64,000 nt of DNA, from the NCBI RefSeq assembly GCF_946892675.1, contig NZ_CAMPOV010000001.1, positions 186,001 through 250,000 of the forward strand, in the 5' to 3' direction. The position numbers and the translations under genes are program-made. The stretch comes from Arthrobacter sp. Marseille-P9274 (lineage in GTDB: Bacteria > Actinomycetota > Actinomycetes > Actinomycetales > Micrococcaceae). Positions 41,585-48,455 of this stretch are shown here, piece after piece (position 1 is the stretch's first letter; each line of letters starts with the position of its first letter). The notes beneath the pieces were generated by a model. The model saw nothing but the letters and a program-made list of their open reading frames with translations, was not told the DNA's origin and did no database searches.

Positions 41585-42184
41585 ATGATCGACGTCGAAC
41601 CCCACTACATGACCCTGTCCTATCGGCTGGCCTACCACGGACTCCCCGACCACCGGGAAGCGCCGGAGACGTATCCGCTGTCCTGGGAGATCGACATCAG
41701 CGCCGAGATCTTTCCGGACGACGACGGCGACGGCGAGCAGCACTCCCTCGGATCGGCCGAAGCCGAGATCGTTCCGGATGCCGGGATGATCGACCTGTTC
41801 GACACCCTCGATGCCGTCGACGCCGATCTGGCGTCCTTCGGCGAGGTCTTCGGAACCATGCGTCCCGACCTGCTGGAGGAAGCCGGCATGACTGAGTTCG
41901 GCGGGGACCTGCTGATCCTCACCAGCCTGGAGATCAAACCCGACTACCGCGGCCAGGAACTAGGCCACCACGTGCTGCGCGCGATCCTGGCGACCATTGG
42001 ACGCAACGTCGACCTCGTCGCCCTGCGCGCTGCACCGCTGCTGGACGACGACGGACCGGAGGAAGGGACGCCGGAGCATGAGACGGCGAAGGCCGCGCTG
42101 CGCTCGTATTGGGAGTCCTTCGGTTTCATGCCGGTCCTCAAAGCCGACTCCGGTGACTACCTGGTCTACTTCACCCGGGAGTGA
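41585..42184 (+). CDS. GNAT-like acetyltransferase
   Basis: 199 aa. LILTSLEIKPDYRGQELGHHVLRAIL gives the GNAT beta-4/alpha-3 core with a slightly altered acetyl-CoA loop (RGQELG where RGxGxG is usual), and YWESFGFMP is the C-terminal motif. The first 60 residues are an acidic N-terminal extension. Substrate unknown. It lies 86 bases upstream of the toxin-antitoxin module. Confidence 0.75.
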   Translation: MIDVEPHYMTLSYRLAYHGLPDHREAPETYPLSWEIDISAEIFPDDDGDGEQHSLGSAEAEIVPDAGMIDLFDTLDAVDADLASFGEVFGTMRPDLLEEAGMTEFGGDLLILTSLEIKPDYRGQELGHHVLRAILATIGRNVDLVALRAAPLLDDDGPEEGTPEHETAKAALRSYWESFGFMPVLKADSGDYLVYFTRE

Positions 42185-42247
42185 GGACAGGTTGGGCCGC
42201 AGGACCTTCAGCAGGAGCTGGAGGCGAACCTCGCTTCCCGACGGATG

Positions 42248-42268
42248 AACCAACGGATAGTGTTGGTT
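42248..42268. promoter_or_regulatory. Candidate operator of the RES/Xre module
   Basis: AACCAAC (42248-42254) and GTTGGTT (42262-42268) form a 7-base inverted repeat with a 7-base spacer, ending 2 bases before the antitoxin ATG. GATAGT (42256-42261) within it could be a -10 box, giving a nearly leaderless transcript. No ribosome site is visible. Confidence 0.45.
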
Positions 42269-42270
42269 GT

Positions 42271-42795
42271 ATGGAGGCCAACCCATCTAAAGACGAGTTC
42301 GTGCTGATTCAGTTCGAGGGAAAATCCGTTCCAGCAACAATCAGGGACGGCAAAGTCCTGCTCCCCAAGTCCCTAGCGCTGCCGTCCGGCCACCTTCGCA
42401 CGCAACGGTTCGTTGGCCCCCGCAGGGCCTCTAAGAATGTAAGGGTCCGCTATGTAAAGCAGGCCGGCTCCTATTCAACCGCTGCTGTAGCCCGCAGGGT
42501 CATCGACGTCCTTGGTAACAACACCGTGGCTGCGCTGCTCGACGTGAACCAGGACCGGCCCAACCGATGGGCGTCCGGCCAGGCTGAACCGAACGAAGAG
42601 AACCGGATGCAGCTCGCGGACCTGGACGCCTTGGCCGGCCACCTGCTCGCTGCCTTCACTCCGGAGCAGGCGGTCCTGTGGCTCGACGGCCATGATCCGT
42701 ACCTGAATGCGCGGCCCATCGACGTCTACCGGCTGGAGGGGGCGGGGCCGGTAATCGAAGCGATGAAAGCCTATGAGCAGGGGGCCTTCGCCTAG
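42271..42795 (+). CDS. Xre/MbcA/ParS-type antitoxin
   Basis: 174 aa. The C-terminal part, DLDALAGHLLAAFTPEQAVL followed by WLDGHDPYLNARPIDVYRL, is the toxin-binding domain of MbcA/ParS/Xre antitoxins, preceded by a helix-turn-helix (VARRVIDVLGNNTVAALLDV). It should repress the operon and neutralise the RES toxin. The last base of its TAG stop is the first base of the toxin start. Confidence 0.88.
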   Translation: MEANPSKDEFVLIQFEGKSVPATIRDGKVLLPKSLALPSGHLRTQRFVGPRRASKNVRVRYVKQAGSYSTAAVARRVIDVLGNNTVAALLDVNQDRPNRWASGQAEPNEENRMQLADLDALAGHLLAAFTPEQAVLWLDGHDPYLNARPIDVYRLEGAGPVIEAMKAYEQGAFA

Positions 42796-43394
42796 TGCGG
42801 TTCTGGCGCGTTCTCAACTGGAATCCGGCCGCGAATACTGCCGAGGACAACGGGCACCCGCTCTATGTTTGGCCGCGGCAGGGAGCAGGTCGCGTCGACG
42901 ACTCGCAGCGGGAGTACCTCGTGCTGTACGTCGGAGATTCCCCGATGGGTGCGGTGGCTGAAGCCTTCGGCCGCTTCATCCGCTGGACTCCTGCCATCCT
43001 GGAGGCACCTAAGGTCGCACCGTCCGGCACGATCAAGGCGCTGGTGGCGTACGACGGCGAGCCGGACGTCCTAGATCTGGATGACCCCTACACTCTCGTG
43101 GACTGGGGACTGCGCCCTAGCCAGGTGGTTGCCCGCGATCGGCCATCAACTCAACGTTGGGCCAGAGCGATCTACGATGCCGGCGGCACGGCAGGTGTCT
43201 CTTGGTGGTCCTACTACGAACCGCGCTGGGCCAGCATCGGCCTCTGGGACATCAGCGGCCTCACCCCGGTCGGCGACCCGGAACCACTGACCCTTGATCA
43301 TCCGGTCATACATGGCGCGGCAGAGGCGATACGGCGAATTGTCGAGGTACCTTCCGCCCGGCGTTCCAGAGGAACCGGAGCCGGGCCATGGTGA
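42795..43394 (+). CDS. RES-domain toxin (NAD+-degrading type)
   Basis: 199 aa; GTG start overlapping the antitoxin stop (TAGTG). FWRVLNW at the N-terminus supplies the conserved Arg, LYVGDSPMGAVAEAFGR the Glu and GVSWWSYYEPRWASIGLWD the Ser region of RES toxins such as MbcT, which deplete NAD+. The size is normal. All catalytic landmarks seem present. A third small gene overlaps its end by 7 bases. Confidence 0.87.
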   Translation: MRFWRVLNWNPAANTAEDNGHPLYVWPRQGAGRVDDSQREYLVLYVGDSPMGAVAEAFGRFIRWTPAILEAPKVAPSGTIKALVAYDGEPDVLDLDDPYTLVDWGLRPSQVVARDRPSTQRWARAIYDAGGTAGVSWWSYYEPRWASIGLWDISGLTPVGDPEPLTLDHPVIHGAAEAIRRIVEVPSARRSRGTGAGPW

Positions 43395-43831
43395 CTGACT
43401 GGGAGGCGGTTCCCGACGGCGAGGACGGGCCCGGCTGGGTGGAGGTACCGGAGTCCGGCTGGGGCATGCTCGCGGCCTGGGCCGCGGGAACCGATAACCT
43501 GCGCCGCCGGCCCGTCGACGACACCGGCCGGCAGGTCCGGGTCACAACCGAAGCCGGGGGCGTCAGCGAGACGCACTTCGAGCCGTTCACCGCCCGGGAT
43601 CGGCAGATCGTGGATGAGTCCATCGAGGATTACCTGCGCGACGCCGGCGTTCAGGTGCCGCCGCGCGGCTTCGTCTGGCTGATGTGCCTGCCGCCCGGCA
43701 TCGATTCCGAGGAGGAGCTCTCACGCCGGATCAACGGCGGTATCACCGATGCAGCACCCGGCGCGGTACACCCGGGCGACATCGCCCCGGTCATGGAGCA
43801 CATCGTCGACGTGCTCTACGGGCGGGATTGA
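43388..43831 (+). CDS. Hypothetical protein, possibly DUF5956
   Basis: 147 aa, acidic and soluble. GPGWVEVPESGWGMLAAWAAG near the N-terminus (in two parts) and DRQIVDESIEDYLRDAG centrally recall the DUF5956 family of actinobacteria; I am not certain. The start overlaps the RES toxin end by 7 bases, so it is co-transcribed with the toxin-antitoxin genes and may be an accessory member of the module. Confidence 0.6.
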   Translation: MVTDWEAVPDGEDGPGWVEVPESGWGMLAAWAAGTDNLRRRPVDDTGRQVRVTTEAGGVSETHFEPFTARDRQIVDESIEDYLRDAGVQVPPRGFVWLMCLPPGIDSEEELSRRINGGITDAAPGAVHPGDIAPVMEHIVDVLYGRD

Positions 43832-44841: not shown

Positions 44842-45190
44842 CCTCTGTCAGATCAGACGGACGTCCGATCCTGGTGCTACCCCAGTAACCGAACACTAGG
44901 GTGCTGCACGACAAGTCAACCGCTTTAGGTCCTCGCGGGCCCCGCGATACTGGATAAGTCGCCTCGGACTTTGAACGGACCCGAAGCGACGGACAGCTTT
45001 TCTCCTTGGGGGCGGCCGGAAACGGCCGGGGCTCACGCCCGTGGATTGCAGTCGGAGCGAAATGGCTCGAAGCGAGATGGCCTGGGGAGGCCTGGCTTCG
45101 GGCCATTTCGCATTCAGCGATCCGGTGTTTTTGCAAGTCAGCGACCATATTGTCGTCACTGACGGCACGCCACCTGAGACTGGCAGGGCC
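44842..45190. other. Gene-free region with a long hairpin
   Basis: No gene found. The main feature is a 16-bp hairpin, arms 45058-45073 (CGAAATGGCTCGAAGC) and 45095-45110 with a single G:U-type pair, with a nested GGCCT/AGGCC stem in its loop. It lies 85 bases upstream of the structured-RNA copy and might belong to its leader or be a terminator-like element. Confidence 0.5.
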
Positions 45191-45194
45191 GCCG

Positions 45195-45400
45195 GCCTCC
45201 GTCCTGGGAGGCGAAGGCATTGTCCCGGGGAAACCGCCCCCAGTACCCGGGGCAATGCCCCTGCCTGCGTACACATGCTTTCTCCAAGACGTGGCCACTA
45301 ACGTGTGGAGTGGACGGGGAAAGTCGGCCGCGTGGGGGTGCGGCCGGCACAACCCAGCCCAAAGACCGACCCTGTTCAGCAGTGAGCAGGGTCTTTTTCT
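45195..45400 (+). ncRNA. Candidate structured RNA, copy 1
   Basis: Successive hairpins: GCCTCC/GGAGGC (45195-45212), a 14-bp stem (45216-45229 with 45246-45259), CTCCA/TGGAG (45282-45310), GGCCGC/GCGGCC around GTGGGGGT, and a final terminator GACCCTGTTCA/TGAGCAGGGTC followed by TTTTTCTG (45368-45400). The four inner elements occur in the same order in copy 2 at 47.3 kb, and sequence differences in the stems are compensatory. Not translated in any frame I would accept. It does not match rnpB, SRP, tmRNA or a riboswitch I know. It precedes the membrane-protein gene by about 120 bases, so a leader role is possible. Confidence 0.55.
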
Positions 45401-45517
45401 GTCCCTCGGCCCGCACCGGCGACGTGTCCCTCGCGGGCAGCCGCTTTCCGGCGGAACCATATCGCTAGGATCGCGGTAGTGGTCGAGCTCGTGACCGCAG
45501 AGACAGGAGACAGACCC

Positions 45518-46384
45518 GTGGCGGTATTCAAAGACCAGAGGCAAGTACTGACCGATCCGGCATCGCCGGCGTTCGGCATCGTGTCAACCGCCGCGATCGG
45601 CGGACTAACCCTGATTGACCCGGCGAAACTGAGCCCTCAGCAGCTGCAGGCCCTGCGGGTCGCCACCGCGGCGGTGACCGGGCTCTACACCGCTGCCACC
45701 ATCGGCCGCGGCCGCGTAACGCTGGTGCCCTTCAACCTGGTAGCCGGACTGGCCGCGGGCGCCGCAACCCTGCGCTTTGCCGAACTCACCGAGGCACTGG
45801 ACGCCCGCGCCATCAGGACTCTGCACGGCGTCGGGGTGACCCGCCGGCGGCCCTGGCTGGCCGCAGGATCGGCCGCATTGACCTTCGCCATGTTCCTCCT
45901 CGACCGGGCCGCGGCCCGGCGGCAAGAGCACGAGGCGGTGACCCTCGAGGACCTGGAACAGCTCCGCCCCGTGACACCGGCCGTCCGCGACCTGGCCGAG
46001 GGCATCCTGCGGGCCGCCGACGTGCCCGGGGCCGACGCCCTGCTCGCGCAGCTGCAGCAGGCCCAGGAAATCTACTGGGAGGAGGACTTCGTCACGACGG
46101 CCCAGTTCAAGGTCCCGGATGGCCTGCCCCGCGCCGTCCCGCACACCCAGGTCTTCCCGGTCACCGCCCGCTTCGAAGCCGAGAACGGTGTCCCTCTGCA
46201 GGTGACGCTGCAGGTCTATAACGGCAAGCTTGACCACCTTGCCATCGAAGCGGTGGACGAGACCGAGGAATCAGCCGATGACGTAGTCGATGCCTGGCCC
46301 GAGCCAAACGAGGTTCAGTACTTCATCGAAGGCCCCGGCGGCGGTGCCGCGCCCGTGAGCCGCGAACCGGGCACCCTGGCCTGA
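45518..46384 (+). CDS. Membrane-associated protein of unknown function
   Basis: 288 aa. GTG start at 45518 chosen for the AGGAGA 8 bases upstream; a GTG 39 bases back lacks a site. Three hydrophobic stretches occupy the first half (FGIVSTAAIGGLTLI, VTLVPFNLVAGLAAGAATL, AAGSALTFAMFLLD-like), and the C-terminal half is a soluble acidic domain (ADDVVDAWPEPNEVQYFIEG). No family recognised. Encoded with a lipoprotein between two copies of a candidate structured RNA. Confidence 0.72.
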   Translation: MAVFKDQRQVLTDPASPAFGIVSTAAIGGLTLIDPAKLSPQQLQALRVATAAVTGLYTAATIGRGRVTLVPFNLVAGLAAGAATLRFAELTEALDARAIRTLHGVGVTRRRPWLAAGSAALTFAMFLLDRAAARRQEHEAVTLEDLEQLRPVTPAVRDLAEGILRAADVPGADALLAQLQQAQEIYWEEDFVTTAQFKVPDGLPRAVPHTQVFPVTARFEAENGVPLQVTLQVYNGKLDHLAIEAVDETEESADDVVDAWPEPNEVQYFIEGPGGGAAPVSREPGTLA

Positions 46385-46461
46385 CCGATCCGGCCGTCGG
46401 TGTCGACAGGGCTAGTCTGCTGGCTAGGATGCAAGGTGTAACCATCCGTAAGGAGAGGTCC

Positions 46462-47115
46462 ATGCGCACCACATCGATACCCCTGACCGCAGCCTTCGTC
46501 CTGATCCTTACAGCGTGCGGCAGCCCGGAGTCGTCCCCGGACGGCGCACCGCAGGAAGCTCCTGCCGCCGCCCCTGAAACCCAGGCCCCCGAACCCAGCC
46601 AGCAAATTTTCGGACCAGGAGAGTTCGAGCTGACCACCGCGGACGGGGCCCGGATCACCATGCAGATTCCCTCTGACCCTCCGGCCGACATCGAGGGCTT
46701 CCGCAAGGACGTCGGCGCCGACCCCGTCACCTACATGACGGCCCAGATCGACAACCGCAAGGGGTCGACGTCCGTGGGCCTGTACCAGGTCACCCTCTAC
46801 GATCCGGAGGGCAACACGTACGTCTTCGAGGACGCATCCGTCAGCCACATCGGCGAATGGGGACCCACTTACACCGAGGACTACGAATACCTGCTGTCGG
46901 ATGGCACGAAGCTGGATGAAGCCACCGGTGAAGCCCTCAACAGCCAGTCCACCGACCTGTACAACAAGTACCTGAACAGCGGCAACGTCGACCCTCTGGC
47001 CAAAGGTGAGGCTGTGATGATCGGCGCCTTCGACAAGGTGCCGGAGGAGATCACCGGAGTGGCGGTTGAGGCCTACGGCATGGGAGAACCTGAGCTCGCC
47101 GCACCGGCCGACTGA
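46462..47115 (+). CDS. Lipoprotein with DUF-like beta domain
   Basis: 217 aa; ATG at 46462 with AAGGAGAGG upstream. Lipobox LTACGS (Cys about 19), then a Pro/Ala/Glu-rich linker of about 30 residues and a beta-rich domain (FELTTADGARITMQIPSD, VGLYQVTLYDPEGNTYVFED). Cell-surface protein; function unknown. It lies 77 bases after the membrane-protein gene in the same direction and ends about 145 bases before RNA copy 2. Confidence 0.75.
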   Translation: MRTTSIPLTAAFVLILTACGSPESSPDGAPQEAPAAAPETQAPEPSQQIFGPGEFELTTADGARITMQIPSDPPADIEGFRKDVGADPVTYMTAQIDNRKGSTSVGLYQVTLYDPEGNTYVFEDASVSHIGEWGPTYTEDYEYLLSDGTKLDEATGEALNSQSTDLYNKYLNSGNVDPLAKGEAVMIGAFDKVPEEITGVAVEAYGMGEPELAAPAD

Positions 47116-47260
47116 GCGCTCAACCTGAGTTGGGGGTCCTCGGGCACCCGAAATTGGAATCTGGTTTTCGCCTTCGGCGGCAGCAAGACTGGGATAGTCC
47201 AGGAACGTTCACCATGGAGATGGGAGCGGCCCCGGACCCGGCCGAATCGGATCCGGCCGG

Positions 47261-47421
47261 CGCCTCCCTTGCGAGTAGGGAGTCAGGTGTTGCCCCGGAG
47301 GGATCCCCCCAGACCGGGGCAACACCCATGCCCGCACATGCTTTTCCCAACCCTTCCCGGTTAGCGTGGGAAACGGACGGGGACGCCGGCCGCGCGTGGG
47401 GGTGCGGCCGGCCTTCTTTTT
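47261..47421 (+). ncRNA. Candidate structured RNA, copy 2
   Basis: Same order of stems as copy 1: CTCCCT/AGGGAG (47264-47282), a 13-bp stem (47286-47298 with 47314-47326), TTTCCCA/TGGGAAA (47343-47373), and GCCGGCCGC/GCGGCCGGC (47386-47411) followed by CTTCTTTTTG, a good intrinsic terminator. Stem bases differ from copy 1 yet pairing is kept. It lies between the lipoprotein gene and the convergent secreted-protein gene, so the two copies bracket the gene pair. Confidence 0.55.
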
Positions 47422-47426
47422 GTCTC

Positions 47427-48455
47427 CTAGACTTTCCCGCCAAGCGACCGGATGTTCCCCAGCGCCGTCTTCGCGCTGTCCCGGAACGCATCCCGGTCCG
47501 CGGCCGCGGCATCCATTTCGGCCTTGTACTCGTTGGCCCGGGCGGTGTCGCCGAATTGGATAGCGATGTCGTACTCGGTCTTCCACTGCCGGTAGTCGCT
47601 GTCGGCCAGTGCGGCCTCGCGGGTGAACGAGGAGTAATCGATCGCATACAGGGCGATCAGGTACTGCTTGATCGCGGCGCCTTCGTGCGCACTCGTTGAG
47701 CGGATATAGCTCCGGGCGGTATCGTAAGCCGCCTTCACCGGCACCTGGGGTGCACCGTAGGTGCGCTGGGCCCAGTCGATGTCGGCCAGCATCTCGGCCC
47801 GGTCGGTCGCGCCCAGGTACTTGAAATAGGTGAACGTCTTCGACGCCTTGCCGGTGGCCGAGGCGACCGTGATGGTCACGTTCTTCTCGGTTGAGGACGC
47901 CGGAACGGTCAGGGTGATCCTGGTGCTGGTCTTCTTGAACGGGACCGACTTGCCGGCGACGTAGACGCGGGTGACGTCGTGGAAGTTCTTGCCGGTGACC
48001 GCGACGGAACGGGCCTTGCCGACCACGGTGGACGCCGGCGACAGCGCAGTGACGGCCGGCTTGTAGGCGTAGCGGACCGTGACCGTCGCGGGCTTCGACC
48101 AGACCTTGCCGGCCCGGCCGGCCACCGAGACCTGGTACTGGGTCTTGCTCGAGGCCACACTCACCTTGCTCAGGGTGAGCGTCCGGGACGTGTTGGCGAC
48201 CTTCGACCAGGTCTTGGACTTCGGACCCTTCTTGTACCACTGGTACTTCAGTGACGTGCCCCTGGCGGAGACCGAGAGCCTGACCGTAGAGCCGTGCACG
48301 GCGGTCTGCGTCTTCGGCTGCGACGTGATGGCGGTCCTGACCGTAGTGGCCGCCTGGATCTGGACGACCGGTGCGGCCTGGGCCGGCTGGACGGCGGCCG
48401 CTCCGCCGCCGAGGACCAGTCCCGCGGCAAGCAGGACGGAGGCGAATCGTTTCAT
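47427..48455 (-). CDS. Secreted protein with Ig-like and IPT/TIG domains
   Basis: 342 aa; start at 48455 with TTGGGGA upstream. Signal peptide 1-28 (MKRFASVLLAAGLVLGGG, then AQAA). An Ig-like repeat with core LKYQWYKKG (about 50-130), an IPT/TIG domain with ALSPASTVVGKARSVAVTG (about 135-220), and an alpha-helical C-terminal domain (about 225-342, rich in Ala/Asp/Tyr). Probably a surface-binding protein. Its end abuts RNA copy 2 in convergent orientation. Confidence 0.78.
   Translation of the reverse strand: MKRFASVLLAAGLVLGGGAAAVQPAQAAPVVQIQAATTVRTAITSQPKTQTAVHGSTVRLSVSARGTSLKYQWYKKGPKSKTWSKVANTSRTLTLSKVSVASSKTQYQVSVAGRAGKVWSKPATVTVRYAYKPAVTALSPASTVVGKARSVAVTGKNFHDVTRVYVAGKSVPFKKTSTRITLTVPASSTEKNVTITVASATGKASKTFTYFKYLGATDRAEMLADIDWAQRTYGAPQVPVKAAYDTARSYIRSTSAHEGAAIKQYLIALYAIDYSSFTREAALADSDYRQWKTEYDIAIQFGDTARANEYKAEMDAAAADRDAFRDSAKTALGNIRSLGGKV

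Follow-up and report, generated by a model that had tools for sequence, protein, structure and literature searches.

A stretch of 64,000 nucleotides (nt) from the genome of Arthrobacter sp. Marseille-P9274 was analyzed (contig NZ_CAMPOV010000001.1, positions 186,001 to 250,000 of the forward strand, on contig 1 of the assembly; "the window"). It contains two similar intergenic segments, named copy 1 and copy 2, which enclose a pair of genes. The genes encode a protein of 301 amino acids (45479-46384) and a lipoprotein-like protein (46462-47115), neither of which has a match in Pfam or NCBIfam, and relatives of the lipoprotein were found in only two of the nine other genomes of the genus. Genes flanking the two copies encode a DUF5956 protein, an alpha/beta hydrolase, an Ig/TIG protein and two proteins that Pfam does not match. 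An earlier note on this DNA had described the segments as two copies of a structured RNA with four stems. The present analysis suggests that both belong to a family of small RNA genes that is apparently uncatalogued and has so far been found in one genus of soil bacteria only.

The homology of the two segments was verified in two ways. A blastn search of the own genome (G000) returned the two copies as the only matches, and copy 2 as query retrieved copy 1 with an E-value of 4.9e-9. In addition, copy 2 and the orthologous segment of another genome of the genus (G085) served to build a covariance model of the four stems, R1, from which copy 1 was excluded. R1 recovered the unseen copy 1 with 82 bits and an E-value of 3.7e-18. 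The segments lie where they had been located and are indeed homologous. Base pairing was then counted in four sequences, namely the two copies and their counterparts in G085, one of which is truncated. In this alignment, which was fitted to the structure drawn from copy 2 and hence leans toward that structure, 95.7% of the cells were paired, and 7 of the 33 pairs had changed on both sides, compared with a mean of 2.1 in shuffled alignments; none of 500 shuffles reached seven. Registers that were slid by one to three columns paired at only 40-55%. Two-sided changes were found in four of the five pairs of stem 1 (P1), two of 13 in stem 2 (P2), one of six in stem 3 and none of nine in stem 4 (P4). 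The replacements reported for stem 2, i.e., C-G by T-A, A-T by G-C and T-G by C-G, are present as described. Stems 1 and 2 covary, and the compensatory change that the earlier note had claimed for stem 3 was not confirmed. Eight of the nine pairs of stem 4 are invariant, and covariation is uninformative on this stem because it hardly varies. The folding of copy 2 was much better than that of its shuffled versions (z = -4.32, none of 200 as good).

R1 matched only two of 395 genomes at the level of the family Micrococcaceae, G000 and G085, and therefore the four-stem form is not widespread. A pattern of the stem-2 hairpin turned up further loci within the genus, two of which carry an upstream motif, CAGAACTGGAATCTGG, that is common to the region before copy 2. 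A second model, R3, which comprises the region of stems 1 and 2 (the P1 sequence and the P2 pairs), was built from seven sequences. In the genus sample of ten genomes it gave 21 matches in eight genomes at E-values of up to 0.1 (the E-values of these models are rough), and it found five members outside its training set (5.8e-9, 1.5e-7, 2.1e-5, 6.3e-5 and 4.5e-4). A search of 375 genomes of the same taxonomic family with R3 revealed matches in six genomes, all of them in the genus, and none in the 365 sampled genomes outside it; strict filters were used and 13 candidates were scored per genome, and thus weak relatives were possibly missed. The covariance-model search of the Micrococcaceae that had been proposed before thus yielded relatives with conserved pairing, in this genus only.

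From these matches a set of 16 members was kept by hand. It consists of 14 of the 21 R3 matches and of two loci, L109 and L123, which were found by the pattern search for element A described below and are supported by R3 with E-values of 0.0011 and 0.0022. Seven R3 matches were dropped, four of which are antisense readings of the palindrome (L097, L101, L102, L104) and three of which are weak (L090, L091, L096) and fit neither of the two upstream elements (best 4 and 5 mismatches). The 16 members are present in six of the ten genomes, with one to five members per genome (five in G000, four in G136, three in G085, two in G122 and one each in G163 and G038); the "two copies" of the earlier note were thus an undercount. 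The conserved unit of the family is about 110 nt long and extends from element A through P2, and the mean column identity among seven cores is 61%. Positions are kept between species, i.e., copy 2 is present at the same place in G000 and G085, and the loci L099 and L084 share both neighbors.

Over 13 distinct rows of an alignment that was fitted to the model (L103 was excluded by the E-value cut), 98.2% of the P2 cells were paired and 11 cells had two-sided changes, a count that none of 500 shuffles reached. These cells are spread over four of the 13 pairs, and this number of pairs was reached by 76 of the 500 shuffles. Compensatory change in conserved helices, which is expected of a structured RNA, was therefore found for P2 in 13 distinct rows as well as for P1 and P2 in the four sequences, and the pairing of stem 2 is kept in relatives of other species. 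The apical loop of P2 contains a run of at least five C in eight of the 16 members. In shuffles of the loops, which were delimited by hand, the mean was 1.25 members and the maximum was six, and none of 20,000 shuffles reached eight.

Rfam gave no match at the gathering threshold across the whole window, and permissive thresholds within 44950-47500 gave chance-level matches only. The proposal of a structured small RNA family without an Rfam match is thus supported. In 11 family loci and four loci of the neighboring element M (see below), Rfam returned only SAM-IV riboswitches, one tRNA and chance-level hits, all of them beside the elements. The SAM-IV riboswitches lie downstream of three members, at a distance of about 180 nt in one case (L085:1750-1862) and of about 1.3 kb in the other two (L084 and L099:128-240, minus strand), and their proximity is possibly a coincidence. 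A blastn search with copy 2 against 295 genomes of the taxonomic family gave 14 candidate relatives in 13 other genomes. Read by eye together with their flanks, all of them look like GC-rich hairpins or chance matches to coding sequence, and they were rejected. Blastn searches of 72,556 plasmid records and 50,697 phage records gave no match at E-values of up to 0.01. A locus on an IMG/VR contig (L125) has a bare hairpin that resembles P2 but lacks both P1 and element A, and it was rejected as unrelated. In the searched literature on small or structured RNAs of Arthrobacter, on small RNAs (sRNAs) with C-rich loops, on actinobacterial Ms1 and 6S RNA and on PafBC promoters, judged from titles and the openings of abstracts, nothing was found that names this family, and nothing on non-coding RNA was found for this genus in the same way.

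The segment that had been read as stem 3, with a conserved TA(A/G)CGTG loop, contains a 26-bp element with the pattern TTTYYCSAA-N11-TANNNT, which was named element A. Three composite copies exist in which stems 1 and 2 are followed by a second element A, namely copy 1, copy 2 and the orthologue of copy 2 in G085. In these, the block reads TTTCTCCAA, TTTTCCCAA and TTTTTCCAA, respectively, and it is followed by 11 nt and by the TANNNT boxes TAACGT, TAGCGT and TACTCT. Exactly 7 nt past the box, the sequence GGACGGGGA starts in all three copies. In other members the same 26-bp element precedes stem 1, a place in which it has no pairing partner at all. The exact pattern had 20 matches in the ten genomes of the genus, versus six for a reversed-pattern control. 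Ten of the 20 are at family loci (flanks read by eye), including all three in the own genome, and the remaining ten are a number of the order predicted by the control. Within 150 nt upstream of the 16 cores, element A with at most one mismatch was present in nine cases, two of which had themselves been found by the element A pattern, compared with 0.00075 for each shuffled stretch. The distance to the core was 37-42 nt in eight of the nine cases and 109 nt in one. When spacings of N9 to N13 were allowed, all nine sites in the fetched loci, eight of them at family loci, had the spacing N11.

As a stem, the same segment is less consistent. About five to seven pairs are possible in each of the three copies (those of copy 1 read by eye), but the register shifts by as much as 2 nt from copy to copy. 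In one common register, two of the six pairs each fail in one copy and one has a two-sided change, so that the compensation reported for stem 3 was not confirmed. "Stem 3" is probably not mainly a stem and is better read as a promoter. The TA(A/G)CGTG sequence is conserved as stated, and it is explained by the promoter-like element A instead of a loop.

If element A is read as a promoter, each copy would consist of an RNA A with stems 1 and 2, followed by a short RNA B; of the four-stem structure, stems 1 and 2 would remain, within two transcription units. With moderate confidence, we favor the reading that the two segments are genus-restricted small intergenic RNA genes, with RNA A as the core and RNA B added in copies 1 and 2. 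RNA A would be driven by element A or by a second putative promoter of the GGAATCTGG type, element B, and would comprise the hairpins P1 and P2; from element A it would have about 30-35 nt of 5' sequence ahead of P1. In the composite copies, the second element A would start RNA B at GGACGGGGA, and RNA B would run through stem 4 with its G-rich loop and stop at an intrinsic terminator. The predicted starts are near 45161 and at 45312 in copy 1 and at 47375 in copy 2. In accordance with the earlier note, both copies are closed by terminator-like hairpins, a separate one in copy 1 and stem 4 itself in copy 2. At the copy-1 locus of G085, both the second half of the copy and the gene for the 301-aa protein are missing, and stems 1 and 2 remain, upstream of the lipoprotein gene.

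Several results weigh against this reading. The folding of copy 1 was unconvincing (z = -1.62, 12 of 200 shuffles as good), and two-sided changes in palindromes can also be caused by selection at the DNA level. Element A is missing upstream of seven of the 16 members. These align with the region upstream of copy 2, and ACTGGAATCTGG, a motif derived from the very sequences that were scored, was present with at most one mismatch in five of them and with three and four mismatches in the other two. A standard sigma-70 scan of the region did not call element A and gave a single hit, at 46403; therefore, element A, if it is a promoter, is one without a normal -35 region. Three terminator sites were found in the scan of the region versus 1.6 expected from shuffles, which is only modestly above chance, and most members have no U-tract after P2. 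The C-run in the P2 loop is short (two to four) in eight of the 16 members.

Other explanations have to be weighed against the same data. One is a continuous RNA of four stems with a real stem 3, in which the loops of stem 2 (C-rich) and stem 4 (G-rich) perhaps form a kissing contact. The good folding of the whole copy 2 is in line with it, and so are the stem-3 pairs that each of the three copies can form in its own register. The contact was calculated for the loop letters only and compared with 2,000 shuffles. Copy 1 yielded -13.8 kcal/mol, a value reached by 1.5% of its shuffles, and copy 2 yielded -12.5 kcal/mol (11%), but the orthologue of copy 2 yielded -10.4, no better than shuffles (38%). 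In the same calculation, the G-rich loop of this orthologue paired well with the C-run of the other G085 locus (-16.0, 3.4%). A cruder, uncontrolled test that included the stem ends gave -16.9 for copy 1, -13.2 for copy 2 and -21.4 for copy 2 of G085. These predictions argue only weakly for a contact within the molecule, which is not kept in the copy-2 orthologue. Moreover, the conserved letters of stem 3 recur as element A where no pairing partner exists, the register of the stem slides, the copy-1 orthologue of G085 has no stems 3 and 4, and R1 matched just two genomes, so that we regard a four-stem RNA as rather unlikely. The earlier note had also considered a cis-acting leader, i.e., a riboswitch or attenuator, which would serve downstream lipoprotein or transporter genes. 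Some positions are in line with it. Copy 1 of G085 precedes the lipoprotein gene by 93 nt, a gene for a glycine-betaine-type binding protein follows L084 and L099 at a distance of about 90-120 nt (Pfam on L084 only), and copy 1 with its terminator precedes the gene for the 301-aa protein. However, the next downstream gene is on the opposite strand in seven of the 14 loci kept from the R3 matches, including copy 2 (the dropped L090 and L096 are not counted, and genes were called with a simple filter of open reading frames and third-position GC content), and therefore standalone RNAs fit better than leaders. No common function was seen among the scanned downstream genes, and copy 1 is closed by its terminator-like hairpin some 80 nt ahead of the next potential start codon. 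Taking both sides into account, a leader appears quite improbable.

It is about as improbable, or slightly more so, that the family consists of dispersed DNA palindromes, REP-like (repetitive extragenic palindromic) or remnants of small mobile elements, without any function as RNA. P2 is a long, dispersed, intergenic palindrome, and the IMG/VR locus exemplifies that a similar bare hairpin arises elsewhere by chance or convergence. On the other hand, each genome has just one to five kept members, positions are conserved between species, a fixed upstream element at a fixed distance is unexpected of REPs, and the C-rich loop recurs. The remaining proposal, 6S or Ms1 RNA, would agree with a structured, intergenic, actinobacterial RNA, and Ms1 has been reported in Arthrobacter, from a search that relied on flanking genes, with conserved flanks of the HAD hydrolase, oxidoreductase and CpaE types (PMC9130861). 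Genes of these flanking types were not seen by Pfam beside the window copies, there is no Rfam match in the window or within the tested loci, and the family has several copies per genome. The proposal is thus unsupported and we give it hardly any weight.

For the preferred reading of standalone small RNA genes, a trans-acting sRNA is the best guess for the function of RNA A, because its C-rich loops resemble the working part of the mycobacterial sRNA B11 and because standalone RNAs fit better than leaders. The loop would pair with G-rich stretches near start codons, as in mycobacterial sRNAs with C-rich loops. In copies 1 and 2, the C-rich loop of stem 2 and the G-rich loop of stem 4 are complementary to each other, which allows RNA B to be read as a decoy. 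Copies 1 and 2 might then be sRNA/anti-sRNA cassettes in which RNA B decoys RNA A, and the family might be a genus-specific regulon under an activator of element A. RNA A would silence G-rich leaders with its C-rich loop. RNA B would be transcribed from a second activator-dependent promoter of this kind, which follows directly, and both its 5' end and its loop would be G-rich (GUGGGGGU) and could pair with the loop of RNA A. This extension is speculative and, in our opinion, has a low probability. The features of both copies and of the adjoining element M are compiled in Table 1.

Table 1. Positions of the predicted features in the window, numbered from its first nucleotide
Feature	Position	Strand	Basis or remark
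Element M, 5' end, CCCCAG-N-CTAGGG inverted repeat (separate family)	44880-44901	+	conserved across M copies
Element M, 3' domain, three hairpins	45001-45110	+	adjoins copy 1; R2 112.9 bits; covariation
Copy 1, promoter-like element A, TTTTTGCAA-N11-TATTGT	45128-45153	+	one mismatch; 37 nt ahead of the family core; putatively for RNA A
Copy 1	45195-45347	+	separate terminator-like hairpin beyond
Copy 1, stem 1 (P1)	45195-45212	+	sequence, folding, pair counts
Copy 1, stem 2 (P2), C-rich loop CCGCCCCCAG	45216-45259	+	models R1 and R3, pair counts, loop test
Copy 1, "stem 3", second element A, TTTCTCCAAGACGTGGCCACTAACGT	45279-45304	+	element A pattern matches
Copy 1, predicted RNA B start GGACGGGGA and stem 4	45312-45346	+	sequence, model R1
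Copy 1, stem 4 (P4), loop GTGGGGGT	45325-45346	+	sequence
Copy 1, terminator-like hairpin (45368-45393) and T tract	45368-45401	+	terminator scan
Upstream of copy 2, motif TTGGAATCTGG of element B (second promoter-like class)	47154-47164	+	motif comparison
Copy 2	47264-47412	+	stem 4 itself terminator-like
Copy 2, stem 1 (P1)	47264-47282	+	sequence, folding, pair counts
Copy 2, stem 2 (P2), C-rich loop ATCCCCCCAG	47286-47326	+	folding, R3, pair counts, loop test
Copy 2, "stem 3", element A, TTTTCCCAACCCTTCCCGGTTAGCGT	47342-47367	+	element A pattern matches
Copy 2, GGACGGGGA, predicted RNA B 5' end	47375-47383	+	7 nt past TANNNT in three of three composite copies
Copy 2, stem 4 (P4), terminator-like, with T tract	47385-47422	+	terminator scan; hairpin 47385-47412

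Element M (44880-45110) is located directly upstream of copy 1. Judged from its sequence, it is a second structured multicopy family and not part of the main finding. It is multicopy in the genus, and over 44970-45109 it is 88% identical to G085. GGTCAAACGC is conserved in many of its copies (loci L058-L082), which have three covarying hairpins and no Rfam match. For its 3' domain, 16 of 20 fetched copies were aligned (L036, L037, L040 and L048 were missed by the extraction or had a 5' part that could not be aligned); 97.3% of the cells were paired and 20 had two-sided changes, which none of 500 shuffles reached. The respective model, R2, matched all ten genomes of the genus with one to six matches each, three antisense matches and one partial match included. 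Among 297 genomes of the order, for each of which 12 candidates were scored, it matched the own genome only.

In each of the ten genomes, one copy of element M precedes a transporter-type gene on the same strand. In G000, G085, G122, G136 and G038 this is an MFS gene, and the corresponding gene of G151, G062, G163, G105 and G007 is ABC-F-like. Pfam was run on each of the five MFS genes and on two of those of the ABC-F type. The true MFS start was inferred from relatives, because the longest reading frame overlaps element M in G000 and G136. For one ABC-F protein, which was cut short by the end of its locus, NCBIfam ranked ribosome-protection ABC-F first, below the curated cut-offs. Element M is thus of interest as a structured family in front of transporter-type genes, some of which resemble ribosome-protection ABC-F proteins. 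By eye, ABC-F and MFS start codons (e.g., L041, L043, L047) lie a few nt past CAGACTGNAACGGTG or CACTATAACGGTG, and this position suggests that the transcripts are leaderless. A LuxR-type gene, not always adjacent, was found upstream in the three such loci tested from G151, G136 and G038, and a PHP-domain gene in the one tested locus of G000. Five of the six DUF5956 genes found in the genus, including that of the window (43388-43831), are followed on their own strand by an element M at a distance of no more than about 1.5 kb, and the one of G151 is not. Further upstream, at 42181-43394, the window contains a RES-domain gene (Pfam RES) directly after a gene without Pfam match, which presumably encodes its antitoxin partner.

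The family would add a group of sRNAs without Rfam entry that has an unusual, easily recognized upstream element, and it would be a clean, testable case of lineage-restricted regulatory RNAs. Among known systems, 6C sRNAs are defined by two hairpins that both have C-rich loops. Like 6C and B11, the family described here comprises actinobacterial intergenic RNAs with hairpins and with a C-run in an apical loop. In contrast to them, the C-run is confined to the P2 loop and to eight of 16 members, no Rfam match exists, the family is restricted to one genus in the sampled genomes, and copies 1 and 2 have an additional second unit, whose loop is G-rich. In the aligned rows, no such run was seen by eye in any P1 loop; in L109 and L123, which are outside this alignment, P1 contains C-runs opposite G-runs. 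For B11, either of its C-rich loops is reported to repress a target with a six-G tract in the 5' untranslated region (PMC10470900). With Ms1 and 6S RNA the family shares the structured, intergenic nature in Actinobacteria, and it differs from them in copy number, flanking genes and the lack of an Rfam match. REP sequences are described as short, highly similar palindromes (14-40 nt in E. coli) in multiple copies per genome (PMC12306157). The family likewise consists of dispersed intergenic palindromes with more than one copy per genome, but the copies are few, the conserved unit is longer, positions are kept between species, and the members have their own upstream element at a fixed spacing.

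In the RecA-NDp type of promoter, a conserved motif is located close to a TANNNT box, and an ordinary -35 region is absent. The layout of element A, a block beside TANNNT without ordinary -35 region, recalls such activator-dependent promoters. The likeness is one of layout only, as the sequence and the spacing of element A differ from those of RecA-NDp, which is reported as the promoter motif of PafBC (PMC6789036).

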